A stretch of 64,000 bases of DNA from Paenibacillus sp. G2S3 (GTDB taxonomy: Bacteria; Bacillota; Bacilli; Paenibacillales; Paenibacillaceae). The notes under the pieces are model-generated. The model did not search any database. It had not been told where the DNA came from and was given only the letters and a program-made list of their open reading frames with translations. Each line of letters opens with the position of its first letter. Positions within the stretch are counted from its first letter, which is position 1. Shown here piece by piece: positions 1,120 through 61,460 of this stretch. The position numbers and the translations under genes were made by a program. The stretch lies in the NCBI RefSeq assembly GCF_030123105.1, contig NZ_CP126095.1:6324001-6388000 (forward strand), in the 5' to 3' direction.

Positions 1120-1790
1120 GCTCTGATTGCACTTGTTCAGGAGAATGCGGCTGGATGTAGGAGGAAGAAGCTTGGATTGTTTGGTTGCAATTTGTGATCG
1201 ATAATCCCTCAGGCTCTAACTCCTCTCCATGCTCTGATTGCACTTTGTGCAATAGAATGTCTCTGGGGGCGGCTAAAACTTGGTTTGATTGCACTTTGTG
1301 CAATCAAACTGGGGAAAAACACTACTTTAGGCGATTTAACCTTAATTCAATTGTACAGAGTGCAACAGAATACCTTTTGTAGACTAGTTTCTGGCTATTC
1401 TGTTGCACATTTTGCAATCAAACTTCACTTTCATCACCAGAGTAGGCAAGTGGGGTTTAGGTACTTATTTAATTGTTGGTACTAATAATAATGTGGGTGC
1501 TTATAGTCATCTTATAGTTGTGATTGGTACTTGTAATTACGATAAGTAATTGTAGTTAAGGGTCGTTATTTCGAGCGCTAGACACAACTAGGCGTTCTAA
1601 TACGATAGTTGCACTTTGTACATCTATTCAGCGTAATTAGAGGATCCTTCACACTTTAATTGCACTCTGTGCAACTAAAAGCAGGCAATTCTCAACCATT
1701 CGCCAAATTCATAAAATTTAGTTGCGGAGAATACACTTATCGCTTCGTTTTTAACGAAACAGAACTTTTAAGTGTATAAAGTGCAATTAT
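1120..1790. repeat. Palindrome array A: spaced copies of a TTGCACTTTGTGCAA-type dyad
   Basis: This 750-bp gap between genes holds about ten 15-bp dyads related to TTGCACTTTGTGCAA. Their centres are near 1134, 1192, 1245, 1296, 1358, 1410, then 1616, 1667, 1729 and 1779. Consecutive distances are 58, 53, 51, 62, 52, (206), 51, 62 and 50 bp. The best copy, at 1284-1308, has perfect 11-bp arms (TTTGATTGCAC) around a TTT loop. Outer copies are degenerate, and 1411-1608 has no clear copy. Short frames across the tract do not look coding. The 51-62-5x spacing is shared with arrays B and C, which use a different core. Confidence 0.85.
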
Positions 1791-27621: not shown

Positions 27622-30600
27622 TTATTTTGACAGTAGATTATAAATAACTTGTGCCGCTTGCGCTCTTGTAGTGACTTCTTTAGGACTCAGCTTGCTATTC
27701 GCTCCGGTCACTATACCTCTTTCCACCAGCGCCTGAAGGGCTTCCTGTGCATAGACAGCAATCTCCCCTGCATCACCAAAATCAGAAAGAGCTACAGCCT
27801 TCTTCTCGGATGGCAGTTCACCTAGCGCTACAAGTGAGCGATACAAGAGTGTAAATAGCTCCTGTCTAGTGATCTGAACCTCTGGCTGGAATTGATTATC
27901 TCCCGAACCTGTGGCTACCCCAAGGCGCTTAGCAGTCGCGAGATAGTTCGTGTAATACGTATTGCCCGCATCCGCAAAATTATCAGTTGCGGTAGCGTCC
28001 GGTGTGATGCCGTAAGCATTCAAGAGCAAGACTATAAATTGGCCTCTAGTTATTGCAGCATTCGGACTGTAATGCTCTGCATCCGTACCGGATGTGATAC
28101 TGCGTGCCGCAAGATAACCTACTGCACTGCTATACCATGAAGTCTCCGCAACATCCGAAAAGCTCACCTTGTTATATCCAATGATATATTGGGAGAAATG
28201 TGTGGTAACAAAATCTACGGTTTTCTTGGCAGCATTATAATTACCACGTACATTCTCCAAGCTTCCAGTGGTATTGATATGGTATACAATAACCGCATCT
28301 TTCTGTTCTCCTGTTTGCAGCGTATATGGCACACTGATATGGACACTGCCTCCACCAAAGGTGGAAAGGGTACTCTGGCCTGCTTTTACCGACAAATCAT
28401 AAACGGGTCTGTCACCGAGAACAGCCTTACCTTCTGCCGTTAATGAAACCTTAGCGATGGTTATGACAATATCCCCTGCATCTGAGGCTGCACTGATACT
28501 TGCCAAAGATTTGGCATCGAGTGTAATCGTACCTACATTCTCATAATGAATGGTAATCTCAGCCTTCGTACCAGAGACCAACTCGTTAATTATGCTTCTC
28601 GGTAGGGTAAGCTCGGCTGTTTTGGTTTCAGAAGTAGCCGCAACTTTAATTTCCAGTGCGGCTTTCTTCCCATCCGCTTCTGCCTTTTTAGCAAGATTCA
28701 CAAGCTCGGTAGCAGCTTCTTTCGTGATTGTTGCTGTAGTTACTCCTGTGGTTGTATCCGTCTTGGTTGTTGCTGTTAATGATAGATTCACGGTGTTGCC
28801 TGTTGTTGTAGTAACCGTTTGAGGATTTGCTGTTGGCGTTGGTGTAGTCGTGCTCGGCGCAGGATTGCTGCTGCCGCCTGGTCCACTTGTTCCTGGGTCT
28901 GAAATAGACACATACGCAGGGACAACAATATTAGTTACTGGACTCGCCTTATACCCCTCTTTCGCTGCGTATCGTACTTGATACGTACCCGGTATTAGGC
29001 CTGTAATCTCCTTATCTGGTGCATACACATAATTAGTTACACTGGACAGCTTATATTCTAAGGCTGTCGTGGTGCCCGTAATTTTCCCATCATTGTTCGC
29101 TGTAGAGGTAGGTGCTACACCCTGCAACCCGGATGGCGCTGCTTGCTCTGCAGTGAATACTGGAACGATCACTTCTGCTGCTCTACCCGCATTAAACCCC
29201 TCTTTGGCTACGTATCTTACCTGATACGTCCCCGGTACCAATCCAACGATCTCTACATCTGTTGCATAAACATAATCAGTAACCGTTGACAGCTTATATT
29301 CCAAAGCTTTCGTAGTCCCTGTGATTTTACCATCATTATTGGCTGCAGTAGTCGGCGCTACGCCCACTAGTCCTACAGGAGCTGCTTGCTCACCATAAGC
29401 CGGAACTTCAACAGTAGCATCTTTACCTACGCTGTATCCCTCTTTTGCCGCATATCGTACATTATAAAAACCTGGAGTAAGACCTGTAATGGCTACGCCC
29501 GTTACAGGCTTATAGTCAGCTTCTCCAACACCCTTATACTCCTGCCCTTCAGCTGAGCCCGTAATTTGCCCATCGTCATTAGCTTCAGAAGTAGGAGCTA
29601 CGCCTAATAGACCTGTCGGAGCTGCTTGTTGATGGATATAAGCAGGCACCTCCACACTTACGTCTTCGCCAGCATTATAAGAAATGATCGTTGGTCCCAC
29701 TGCGTTCGTTGGACCTTGATATCCTGATGTAGCCGCATATCTTACCTTATAAATACCAGGCGCAAGCCCTGTAATCGCTGATCCTGATATTGGCGTATAT
29801 GCCGTATCTCCAGCTAGCTTATATTCCAAGGCAGAACTTGTGCCCAAGATTTGCCCATCCTTACTGTCTGCTGCGGTTGGTGCTACACCCGTAAGTCCAG
29901 TCGGCACAGCTTCCAGTTTAGAGAATAGCTTATCCAGAGCTGTTGTAGTGTTAGTGTATCTGGCTCCGACTGGGTAATTCGCCTGCACGTAATCCGGTTG
30001 GATGTTCGTCCAGCTGTACATAAGCTCAATATGCCCCAGAATAGGTGCGTTAGAACCACCTGCATCTTTGTTGTCCTTGTTGTACGTGAACAGATACGGA
30101 ACTTGAAGTCTGTCTCCAATCACGGTGTTTCCAAGCCCATCCACATAACTAATCACAGATGGTTTGGCTGCTGTATTGTTTTCGGTCTTGATATTAGTCA
30201 GATTAGTACGAACCAAATCAACATACAAATTCGCATATGGATGATTGGTTGTTCTAATCTGAAGCTCATTATTATTATGCGGATTAGCATTGCCCTTAGT
30301 GCCGCTGTTATTGCTCGGTTCAGCAACCGTCACTCCAGAGTCGAGCTTCGTATCGAAAAAGTAGATCTTATCGATATTATGTTTTTTGGCATACTCGTTG
30401 ATATATTTGATAACCGCTTGCGTGTTAGGGCACCATGATCCGCCTAACAAAATCGCATAGTTACCATCACTCGCCAAAATTTGCTTCAACTGATGGTAGG
30501 TCACATGTTCATACACGAGCGTACCGTCCGATTCGTTGAAAATCGTAGGTTTGCCCTCATTTTCGCCCTCGTAGTTCTTGTTAAACGCCGCCTTGATATA

Positions 30601-31344
30601 AGCAGATTCATCGATCGTGCTATACCCAGAAGCGGCACTAAGTACCTCTCTTACTGATGCTTTATACGCATTAACCTTCGCAGCATCAAGTGTTCCGTTC
30701 GTCAGGAACTCATTCCACGAATAGCTCTTATCCAGATAGGATACAACAGGAGCACTATTTCCTTGTGCATCCTTGTGATCCTTGTTGTAGACCAACAGGA
30801 ATGGAGATTCGATCTTATTAGCAGTTACGATATCCCCGTTTTTATCGGTGTAGCTGACATTGCGTTCTGGAACATCCTTTGAGGATAGATTTAAATTCTT
30901 CAAATATTTATTTACTAGATCAACGTATTTGTAAGCAAATTTATTATTGCTGTCTGCAATCTGAAGGGTATCCCCATCCAGCTTAGTATCAAAGTTATAA
31001 ATCGTAGAGATGCCATATTCCTTGGCTACCTCATTGATAAAGCCGATGTCGGCCTGTGTATTGTCGCTCCAAGCGCCGCCCACCAGGACAGCGTAAGTGC
31101 CTTCACTCTCAAAAAGATGAACGATATCCTCATAGGTTGCCGTTTTAAATACATGGTTAGGATCATTCAGACGGTCATATACATGACTGAAATAATCAAA
31201 GTGGCTAACGCCGCCTTGGGAAGAGGTTATCGCCTCTGCGTTATCCGGATTAGCATAAGCTCTTCCTGCCTGAGTAGGCAGAATTAGCAGGGAGGCTGCC
31301 AGCAGCAGCGTTAGAATTTTTTTGAAGGTTAATGGTCGTATCAT
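27622..31344 (-). CDS. Large SLH-anchored surface protein with two thioredoxin-like domains and four tandem repeats
   Basis: About 1240 residues, secreted. A signal peptide (ILTLLLAASLLILPTQAGRA) is followed by two related thioredoxin-like domains. The first has GGAWSDNTQ and the second GGSWCPNTQ, with one Cys where thioredoxins have CxxC. Four repeats of about 75-90 residues follow (GVAPT, DGKITG, EYKLS, GLxPGTYQVRYAAKEG), then a Pro/Thr linker and three C-terminal SLH domains that bind the cell-wall polymer. ATG 31344 has GAGG eight bases upstream. The repeats are visible in DNA as four blocks of about 235-280 bp between 28915 and 29905. It lies 73 bp after a smaller secreted protein and probably shares its leader. 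Function unknown. Confidence 0.85.
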   Translation of the reverse strand: MIRPLTFKKILTLLLAASLLILPTQAGRAYANPDNAEAITSSQGGVSHFDYFSHVYDRLNDPNHVFKTATYEDIVHLFESEGTYAVLVGGAWSDNTQADIGFINEVAKEYGISTIYNFDTKLDGDTLQIADSNNKFAYKYVDLVNKYLKNLNLSSKDVPERNVSYTDKNGDIVTANKIESPFLLVYNKDHKDAQGNSAPVVSYLDKSYSWNEFLTNGTLDAAKVNAYKASVREVLSAASGYSTIDESAYIKAAFNKNYEGENEGKPTIFNESDGTLVYEHVTYHQLKQILASDGNYAILLGGSWCPNTQAVIKYINEYAKKHNIDKIYFFDTKLDSGVTVAEPSNNSGTKGNANPHNNNELQIRTTNHPYANLYVDLVRTNLTNIKTENNTAAKPSVISYVDGLGNTVIGDRLQVPYLFTYNKDNKDAGGSNAPILGHIELMYSWTNIQPDYVQANYPVGARYTNTTTALDKLFSKLEAVPTGLTGVAPTAADSKDGQILGTSSALEYKLAGDTAYTPISGSAITGLAPGIYKVRYAATSGYQGPTNAVGPTIISYNAGEDVSVEVPAYIHQQAAPTGLLGVAPTSEANDDGQITGSAEGQEYKGVGEADYKPVTGVAITGLTPGFYNVRYAAKEGYSVGKDATVEVPAYGEQAAPVGLVGVAPTTAANNDGKITGTTKALEYKLSTVTDYVYATDVEIVGLVPGTYQVRYVAKEGFNAGRAAEVIVPVFTAEQAAPSGLQGVAPTSTANNDGKITGTTTALEYKLSSVTNYVYAPDKEITGLIPGTYQVRYAAKEGYKASPVTNIVVPAYVSISDPGTSGPGGSSNPAPSTTTPTPTANPQTVTTTTGNTVNLSLTATTKTDTTTGVTTATITKEAATELVNLAKKAEADGKKAALEIKVAATSETKTAELTLPRSIINELVSGTKAEITIHYENVGTITLDAKSLASISAASDAGDIVITIAKVSLTAEGKAVLGDRPVYDLSVKAGQSTLSTFGGGSVHISVPYTLQTGEQKDAVIVYHINTTGSLENVRGNYNAAKKTVDFVTTHFSQYIIGYNKVSFSDVAETSWYSSAVGYLAARSITSGTDAEHYSPNAAITRGQFIVLLLNAYGITPDATATDNFADAGNTYYTNYLATAKRLGVATGSGDNQFQPEVQITRQELFTLLYRSLVALGELPSEKKAVALSDFGDAGEIAVYAQEALQALVERGIVTGANSKLSPKEVTTRAQAAQVIYNLLSK

Positions 31345-31417
31345 TATGTGCACCTCGCCTTAAATAGGTTTATGTGATGGATGGGCTGAAAGGAATCCTG
31401 AATGAGCCTGCTGCTCA

Positions 31418-43908: not shown

Positions 43909-44141
43909 ATTAGGGAAATCCTCCCTGATTTTTGGTATTTTAGTTGCTTAAAACTGATAATTAGGGAAAACTTCCCTAATATTTAGCGGATTTGCGTAAA
44001 ATCGGCCCTATTCCAGTGATTTTTAGGGAGGTTTTCCCTAAAACATCTAGTTTGGGGCCGTAATCGGCTATTTTTGGGGAGGATTTCCCTAAAAAGTATA
44101 TTTCGATACGATAATCGGCTACTTTCAAGGAGGTTATCTTC
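43909..44141. repeat. Palindrome array B: AGGGA/TCCCT dyads at fixed spacing
   Basis: Four clear dyads of the form TTAGGGA-n-TCCCTAA have centres at 43919, 43970, 44032 and 44083. A weak fifth lies near 44134. Spacings are 51, 62, 51 and about 51 bp. TAATCGGCTA recurs just before the third-to-fifth units. The 62-bp step breaks any reading frame, so this is not a repeat-protein gene. Confidence 0.85.
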
Positions 44142-60917: not shown

Positions 60918-60930
60918 GGCTGTGCTATTT

Positions 60931-60994
60931 AAAATAGATGAGGCTGTCCTGCAAAGTAGTGAATGCTGCTTACGGGGCAGCTTCATCTATTTTA
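60931..60994 (+). terminator. Terminator after the amylase gene
   Basis: AAAATAGATGAGGCTG pairs with CAGCTTCATCTATTTT across a loop of about 30 bases. The rest of the gap 60995-61160 shows only G-rich sequence with no clear feature. Confidence 0.65.
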
Positions 60995-61160: not shown

Positions 61161-61348
61161 CTAATTAGGGAAAAGCTCCCTGAAAATATTCGATATTCGC
61201 TTATAATCAACGAAATTAGGGAATTCCTCCCTAAAAATTAGGGTAATGACTTGAATTTCTACCAAATCAGATGAATTTAAGGGATATTTTCCCTAATTAT
61301 AAATCTAATGACCAGTAATCTTAGAATTTCAGGGAGAAATTCCCTAAT
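61161..61348. repeat. Palindrome array C: AGGGA/TCCCT dyads with the same spacing as array B
   Basis: Four dyads of the form TTAGGGA-n-TCCCTAA have centres at 61174, 61225, 61287 and 61338. Spacings are 51, 62 and 51 bp, the order found in array B. Sequence between dyads is poorly conserved apart from a TAATC shortly before some units. The tract lies between the amylase gene and the convergent mprF terminator. Confidence 0.85.
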
Positions 61349-61403: not shown

Positions 61404-61460
61404 GAAAAAAAAGGGGCGTACCCAAGTAGCTAAAACTACTTTGAGACGGTCCCCTTTTCT
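61404..61460 (-). terminator. Terminator of mprF
   Basis: AAAAGGGG and CCCCTTTT outer arms with an inner CAAGTAG/CTACTTTG stem. On the minus strand it leads into a TTTTTTTT run, about 40 bp after the mprF stop. Confidence 0.8.

Follow-up and report, generated by a model that had tools for sequence, protein, structure and literature searches.

The locus studied here raises the question of what keeps short palindromes at the same distances from one another when the palindromes themselves are spelled differently. In the window analysed, a stretch of 64,000 nucleotides from Paenibacillus sp. G2S3 (positions 6324001-6388000 of the 6.70-Mb single contig of this genome, hereafter G000, at the start of which a gene recognised by eye is presumably dnaA, and whose HisF shares 96% identity with that of P. 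agri, in line with a Paenibacillus), series of 15-bp dyads with two different cores are placed at steps close to 51, 62 and 51 bp. Distances that are kept while the letters of the palindromes change suggest a landing pad for a protein complex that would read position along the helix, a proposal drawn from sequence comparison.

Arrays in the window and their excess over chance

Array A1 (1238..1417) consists of four TTGCA-N5-TGCAA dyads, two in forward orientation (centres 1245 and 1296) followed by two in reverse (1358 and 1410), with steps of 51-62-52, and array A2 (1609..1786) has its centres at 1616, 1667, 1729 and 1779, with steps of 51-62-50; the preliminary description had given these centres and steps, and they were re-derived unchanged. 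The third and fourth dyads of A2 are weak, having 3 and 2 mismatches to TTGCA-N5-TGCAA respectively. A possible decayed extra A1 dyad with 3 arm mismatches, TTGCAATTTGTGATC, is found at 1185..1199, and in the relative G001 additional TTGCAC dyads are present upstream of the A1 ortholog. Arrays B (43912..44090; centres 43919, 43970, 44032 and 44083) and C (61167..61345; centres 61174, 61225, 61287 and 61338) are built on AGGGA-N5-TCCCT and both follow the 51-62-51 rule previously reported for them, but the fifth dyad formerly counted in array B, at 44134, is badly decayed (4 arm mismatches). The two cores had been regarded as unrelated; their letters do differ, but TTGCA-N5-TGCAA and AGGGA-N5-TCCCT have an identical 15-bp layout and share a G at arm position 3 and an A at position 5.

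Both cores are more frequent in the window than expected, with 13 matches to TTGCACTTTGTGCAA at up to 3 mismatches against 2.57 expected and 9 matches to AGGGAN5TCCCT at up to 1 mismatch against 1.70 expected, counts reached in 0 of 100 shuffles in each case.

Terminator-like hairpins flank array C (60930-60994 and about 61405-61460), and hairpins of similar look were seen by eye near other B arrays (G000:1150288 and G001:250121). Elsewhere in the window, tandem repeats of about 240-285 bp extend over 28942-29827, within a reading frame of 1243 aa on the minus strand (27622-31353).

Spacing preference in the whole genome

A search of the host genome with the two-core pattern gave 49 pairs at 51 bp for the B core (up to 2 mismatches), which by our own grouping form 31 loci, together with 19 pairs at 51 bp for the TTGCAC core (up to 3 mismatches) and 11 pairs at 62 bp for the TTGCA core (up to 2 mismatches), the combined A-core lists amounting to about 18 loci. 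Each of these three pair searches gave 0 matches with the pattern read backwards. Both cores together thus mark about 49 dyad loci in G000, the full four-dyad set being established at only part of them.

A distance-free test was performed on 1435 dyads over 864 kb by recording the distances between like-core dyads; this sequence was partly chosen around known core matches, which affects dyad density but not the distance test. The 54 like-core pairs comprised 13 at 51 bp, 10 at 113 bp, 8 at 164 bp and 5 at 62 bp, compared with a mean of 0.055 pairs per distance at the other distances between 16 and 300 bp, peaks and their neighbours excluded. At the set mismatch limit, 18 quads were recovered from the 864 kb against 0 from the reversed sequence. 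The spacing rule of the preliminary description is thereby confirmed and reaches well beyond the window.

The 31 B loci become sparser with distance from the origin, with 9, 12, 8 and 2 loci in successive quarters of the way to the terminus, which was assumed to lie opposite dnaA (uncorrected KS p 0.005); this gradient could equally reflect how old the respective region is.

Anatomy of the unit and its conservation between two species

The arrays had been described as a plain row of dyads obeying one spacing rule; the rule stands, but the unit is mirror-symmetric around the 62-bp gap, with the dyads in the order forward-forward-reverse-reverse and 36, 47 and 36 bp between them. In a set of 34 A and 28 B arrays taken from sequence of several genomes, duplicates removed, the spacing is exactly 51-62-51 in 22 of the A and 19 of the B arrays and one base off in at least one step in the remainder, the tally having admitted only steps of 50-52 and 60-63. 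All steps are near whole helical turns, as had been claimed (51/5=10.2, 62/6=10.33 and, over the whole unit, 164/16=10.25). Logos of the same set display high information in the dyads that continues 4-6 bp inward, where A arrays carry GAAT/ATTC adjoining the dyads; on the outer side almost none is left from about 5 bp past the outer dyads onward. The spacers are otherwise weakly similar, with a faint GGC/GCC near their middle.

G000 and G001 align in blocks longer than 3 kb that are, among the matches listed, mostly 80-97% identical. In G001 the A1 ortholog lies at 6456999 (51-63-52), that of A2 at 6457446 with identical steps of 51-62-50, and that of array B at 6499136 (51-61-52), while array C is absent, the gap between the same genes measuring about 80 bp there versus about 600 bp in G000. 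Thirteen of 18 G000 arrays have both flanks in the compared G001 stretches, and 9 of them recur in G001 as complete quads at the corresponding position, 2 are broken (A162282 and A1036867) and 2 are missing (A1269014 and array C). Conversely, the G001 array at 250121 has no counterpart in G000. In the nine quads common to both genomes, identity amounts to 372/408 (91%) in the arms, 732/1067 (69%) in the spacers and 1203/1968 (61%) in the 120-bp flanks, and 21 of 27 spacers have kept their length, the other 6 differing by one base. The alignment of 11 arrays to syntenic G001 sequence, which includes A1269014 although its array is gone from G001, gave 430/504 identical positions in the arms, 130/156 in the loops, 506/791 in the 51-spacers, 376/517 in the 62-spacers and 1626/2566 in the flanks. 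The selection of arrays with recognisable dyads, and with spacings no more than one base off, means that these figures overstate the constraint; the two-species conservation is partly circular and would be supportive of a constraint on the dyads rather than proof of it.

Other species and other cores

Extended to relatives, the two-core search recovered A-core pairs in 16 of 60 genomes (G000 counted), all within the 37 genomes of the same genus and 0 of the 23 outside it, the single matches in G012 and G031 being weak since G015 also gave one backward-control match; B-core pairs were recovered in 6 of 60 (G000 counted). Core-blind pairing in parts of further genomes of this genus revealed AGTCCC/GGGACT dyads at 51 bp in G006 and AACGA/TCGTT dyads at 50-51 and 62 bp in G014, while the 200 kb of G010 that were scanned yielded no pairs so spaced.

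A core-blind quad scan of 80 named hisF loci yielded 11 matches, of which 10 were accepted, in 7 loci. These belong to P. psychroresistens (L177, one 51-62-51 quad), Fontibacillus panacisegetis (L185, two quads), Paenibacillus sp. 32O-W (L189, one quad), P. vini (L197, two quads with different cores), P. faecis (L215, two quads), Paenibacillus sp. J2TS4 (L217, one quad) and P. nanensis (L220, one quad). The excluded match, at 17366 of L177 (AACGATGAAAAACATGCTA), appears by eye to be chance or a coding repeat. The cores of these named species read CGGGA, TTGGA and CTGGA (all N5), CTGCA (N4) and GTTGC, to which AACGA in G014 and TGGGA in one marginal quad of G031 can be added. Most cores, TTGCA and AGGGA included, fit NNG[GC]A-N5-T[GC]CNN, commonly a 5-bp arm, N5 and a 5-bp arm, and thus give the impression of a single recognition scheme that has drifted.

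Since reversal of the sequence preserves both dyads and spacing, the core-blind scan was controlled with decoy spacings. In seven sequence sets, 11, 13, 8, 0, 0, 1 and 1 matches were obtained with the real spacing, compared with a single match, an 11-bp tandem repeat in G014, for four decoy spacings in the same sets (28 tests). Swapping the 62 and 51 steps gave six matches, 2 from the his set and 4 from G000, and all of them overlap real arrays.

Tandem arrays of 51 bp with other dyad cores (ACGGTATAAATCCCGT, CGTCCC/GGGACT, AACGGCAGAAATGCCGTT) were also observed in G001 (299809-301002, L107 and L108; 347214-348449, L110; 1015655-1016179, L113), in G006 (L136-L139) and in G031 (L167-L174). In Cohnella, dyads such as AGTCGGTGAGACCGACT and alike recur every 52 bp (L244:8131-8546 and L229:9061), and G001:1040726-1040895 is a simple repeat of CCCCGTA-like units.

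Genomic context

The arrays are intergenic and mostly downstream of genes. This position, together with the 62-bp step, a length not divisible by three, and with spacers that are unlike between copies, upholds the earlier argument against decayed repeat proteins, and decayed coding repeats were rejected. Among the 18 G000 arrays, 13 lie in co-directional, 4 in convergent and 1 in divergent gaps, compared with 57, 9 and 30 respectively of the 96 gaps of at least 200 bp in the first 400 kb, with genes called from the longest open frames, so that individual gap types may err (array B is perhaps convergent). Two arrays are located within the hisA-hisF gap, inside the his operon. This gap is at most 86 bp in 34 of the 42 named loci in which hisA could be placed beside hisF, whereas it carries TTGCAC-core quads in G000 and G001, and in Fontibacillus panacisegetis, where it measures 265 bp, a CTGCA-core quad (L185:9736-10001).

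Operators of a single transcription regulator would be consistent with 15-bp dyads occurring several per site, but only 1 of 18 arrays occupies a divergent gap, a gap type that makes up 30 of the 96 reference gaps, and the few neighbours read, putatively his genes, rnr/smpB and alanine dehydrogenase, look unrelated. We consider such operators very unlikely.

Protein on DNA or RNA hairpins

The preliminary description had allowed both for a protein-binding phased array and for an RNA with serial hairpins. A structured RNA or 3' UTR would be in line with the ability of the dyads to form hairpins and with the location of 17 of the 18 arrays in co-directional or convergent gaps, the hisA-hisF gap within the his operon being an example. 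Flank positions 9-10 also pair in excess, with 91 versus 48.2 and 100 versus 65.9 expected Watson-Crick pairs in A arrays and 96 versus 57.8 and 69 versus 51.5 in B arrays. This flank match, however, extends over the eight half-sites of the whole array without being stronger inside a single dyad, as if each array had one binding specificity; subfamily descent could be another source of it. The core arms, for their part, are without Watson-Crick excess: at position 4 of the A core 76 of 136 dyads are paired, where independence predicts 76.9, positions 3-7 of the B core pair at expectation, and A-C as well as G-T mismatches are frequent in the A arms (41 and 19 at position 4, 47 and 21 at position 8, 14 and 24 at position 7). 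Without co-variation, the core arms do not behave as hairpin stems would.

Moreover, an RNA offers no evident reason for the one-base precision of a poorly conserved 36-nt linker, whereas a linker fixed in length but not in sequence bears the mark of DNA geometry. A search of Rfam returned 0 matches above the gathering score in the window, so that no named RNA family was recognised there, and the literature searched contained no description of such arrays, the four core strings being absent from the papers searched; the earlier remark that no named family was known to follow this rule agrees with both results. Serial RNA hairpins are accordingly improbable in our judgement, and the unlike spacers of fixed length and the absence of core pairing excess favour the alternative of a protein on DNA.

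Mobility and the IS110 element

The main rival is a non-autonomous REP/BIME- or MITE-like mobile element, in which the forward pair and the reverse pair would be the two ends and a transposase acting in trans would fix the spacing. The forward-forward-reverse-reverse order indeed resembles two transposon ends, and the element would be extragenic and present in tens of copies, as the arrays are. B copies are alike over about 190-240 bp, and their similarity extends some 20 bp past the outer dyads before it stops, so that dispersal or copying also occurs. An IS110-family element (PF01548, PF02371) is present in two G000 copies, the stretches they share being 575668-577189 (L010) and 4108161-4109684 (L019), which continue into the dyad; in the first the transposase appears in two frames. 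In each copy the right end of the element meets a B dyad at the dyad's left edge, the orientation being the same both times, and one copy has dyad-like sequence also left of the element. The arrays are thus the target of a site-specific IS, much as REPs are described as targets of IS elements in the available text of PMC1525189.

With regard to a transposase, matches to Y1 (IS200/RAYT; PF01797), the only family searched, were found in some array-bearing genomes (9 in G007, 12 in G028 and 11 in G034), but none in the array-rich G000, G001, G012 and G023 (the last 72% complete), which hold 45, 53, 22 and 13 B pairs respectively in the 60-genome search; mobilisation by RAYT is therefore not supported for these four. 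No autonomous copy was noticed among the listed G000 B pairs. At the two sites lacking an array in one of the species (array C and G001:250121) the entire intergenic gap differs, with no clean element boundary and no target-site duplication by eye, and most of the checkable arrays are complete quads at matching positions in both species. A mobile element thus appears somewhat unlikely, while being the strongest competitor of the protein site. Phage and plasmid origins were also rejected, as no exact A or B pair was found in viral_contigs and no plasmid matched arrays A1 and C.

Proposed model

The observed geometry, its persistence across species despite the change of core, the conservation centred on the dyads plus some bases next to them and the mostly 3'-of-gene location find their simplest account in a phased, mirror-symmetric site for four protein dimers. 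Judged on sequence evidence, we give about an even chance to the reading of each array as a helically phased four-dimer site of a putative DNA-binding protein. Each array of about 180 bp would be one compound binding site, with one dimer per 15-bp dyad contacting two half-sites of 5 bp that are separated by one helical turn. The four dimers would lie on one face of the helix, at steps of five, six and five turns and in mirror order, and could come together in a symmetric complex by which the DNA is bent, wrapped or looped. We infer that protein does bind the arrays and that the binder would be a dimer from one family with shifting specificity; its role would be in chromosome architecture or insulation rather than in the control of one promoter set, and is probably architectural.

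More tentatively, and with the odds against it, the arrays may be Paenibacillaceae-wide sites whose geometry is conserved while their letters drift with the binder, in the manner of a sequence-specific nucleosome-like particle with a species-specific code. Constant spacing with sequence turnover between species would make a shape rule separable from a letter rule, and if the protein complex is true, a positioned DNA-wrapping or looping particle would be available at dozens of natural sites per genome. The 51-62-51 rule also provides a core-blind way to locate such sites in unannotated genomes.

Comparison with known systems

Like CRISPR, the arrays combine short palindromic repeats with uniform, dissimilar spacers. 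CRISPR repeats, however, stand in one orientation with equal spacers, whereas here 15-bp repeats, typically four units, are inverted half-way and separated by 36, 47 and 36 bp, one spacer being longer.

REP hairpins carry a conserved tetranucleotide, GTAG or GGAG, at their foot, and this is absent from the logos of the A and B arrays. The resemblance to REP/BIME with RAYT lies in many short extragenic palindromes combined in units, with cores that vary by species. Both are also IS targets, as described for REPs in PMC1525189. The differences are the fixed 51-62-51 spacing common to different cores, the mirror order of four and the four array-rich genomes without a Y1/RAYT match.

For RemA of B. 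subtilis, a ring protein, wrapping of DNA across repeated sites has been proposed, which is the point of likeness, but its sites, in the available text of PMC8481266, are 7-bp AT-rich direct repeats at 3-bp intervals, and no dyads are described there.

In dyad design the arrays resemble Lrp/AsnC operators, which share the 15-bp dyads, the 5-bp arms with N5 and the placement on one helix face (the CTGCA core has N4). The arms of core A are those of the Ss-LrpB consensus, TTGCAAAATTTGCAA, as given in the excerpt of PMC4046817. The archaeal Lrp sites reported in the consulted portion of PMC2995911, however, are spaced by two or three turns as against five, six and five here, and the arrays are mostly outside divergent promoter gaps. 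All of the 60 genomes possess Lrp/AsnC genes, in numbers that do not follow those of the arrays, which rules out Lrp copy number as an array marker. Because the spacing differs and the gene number does not track, the arrays were not filed under Lrp/AsnC; their binder is nevertheless possibly Lrp/AsnC-like, and for Lrp-type octamers, which are made of four dimers, DNA wrapping has been proposed in the available accounts of the Ss-LrpB and B. subtilis LrpC systems.
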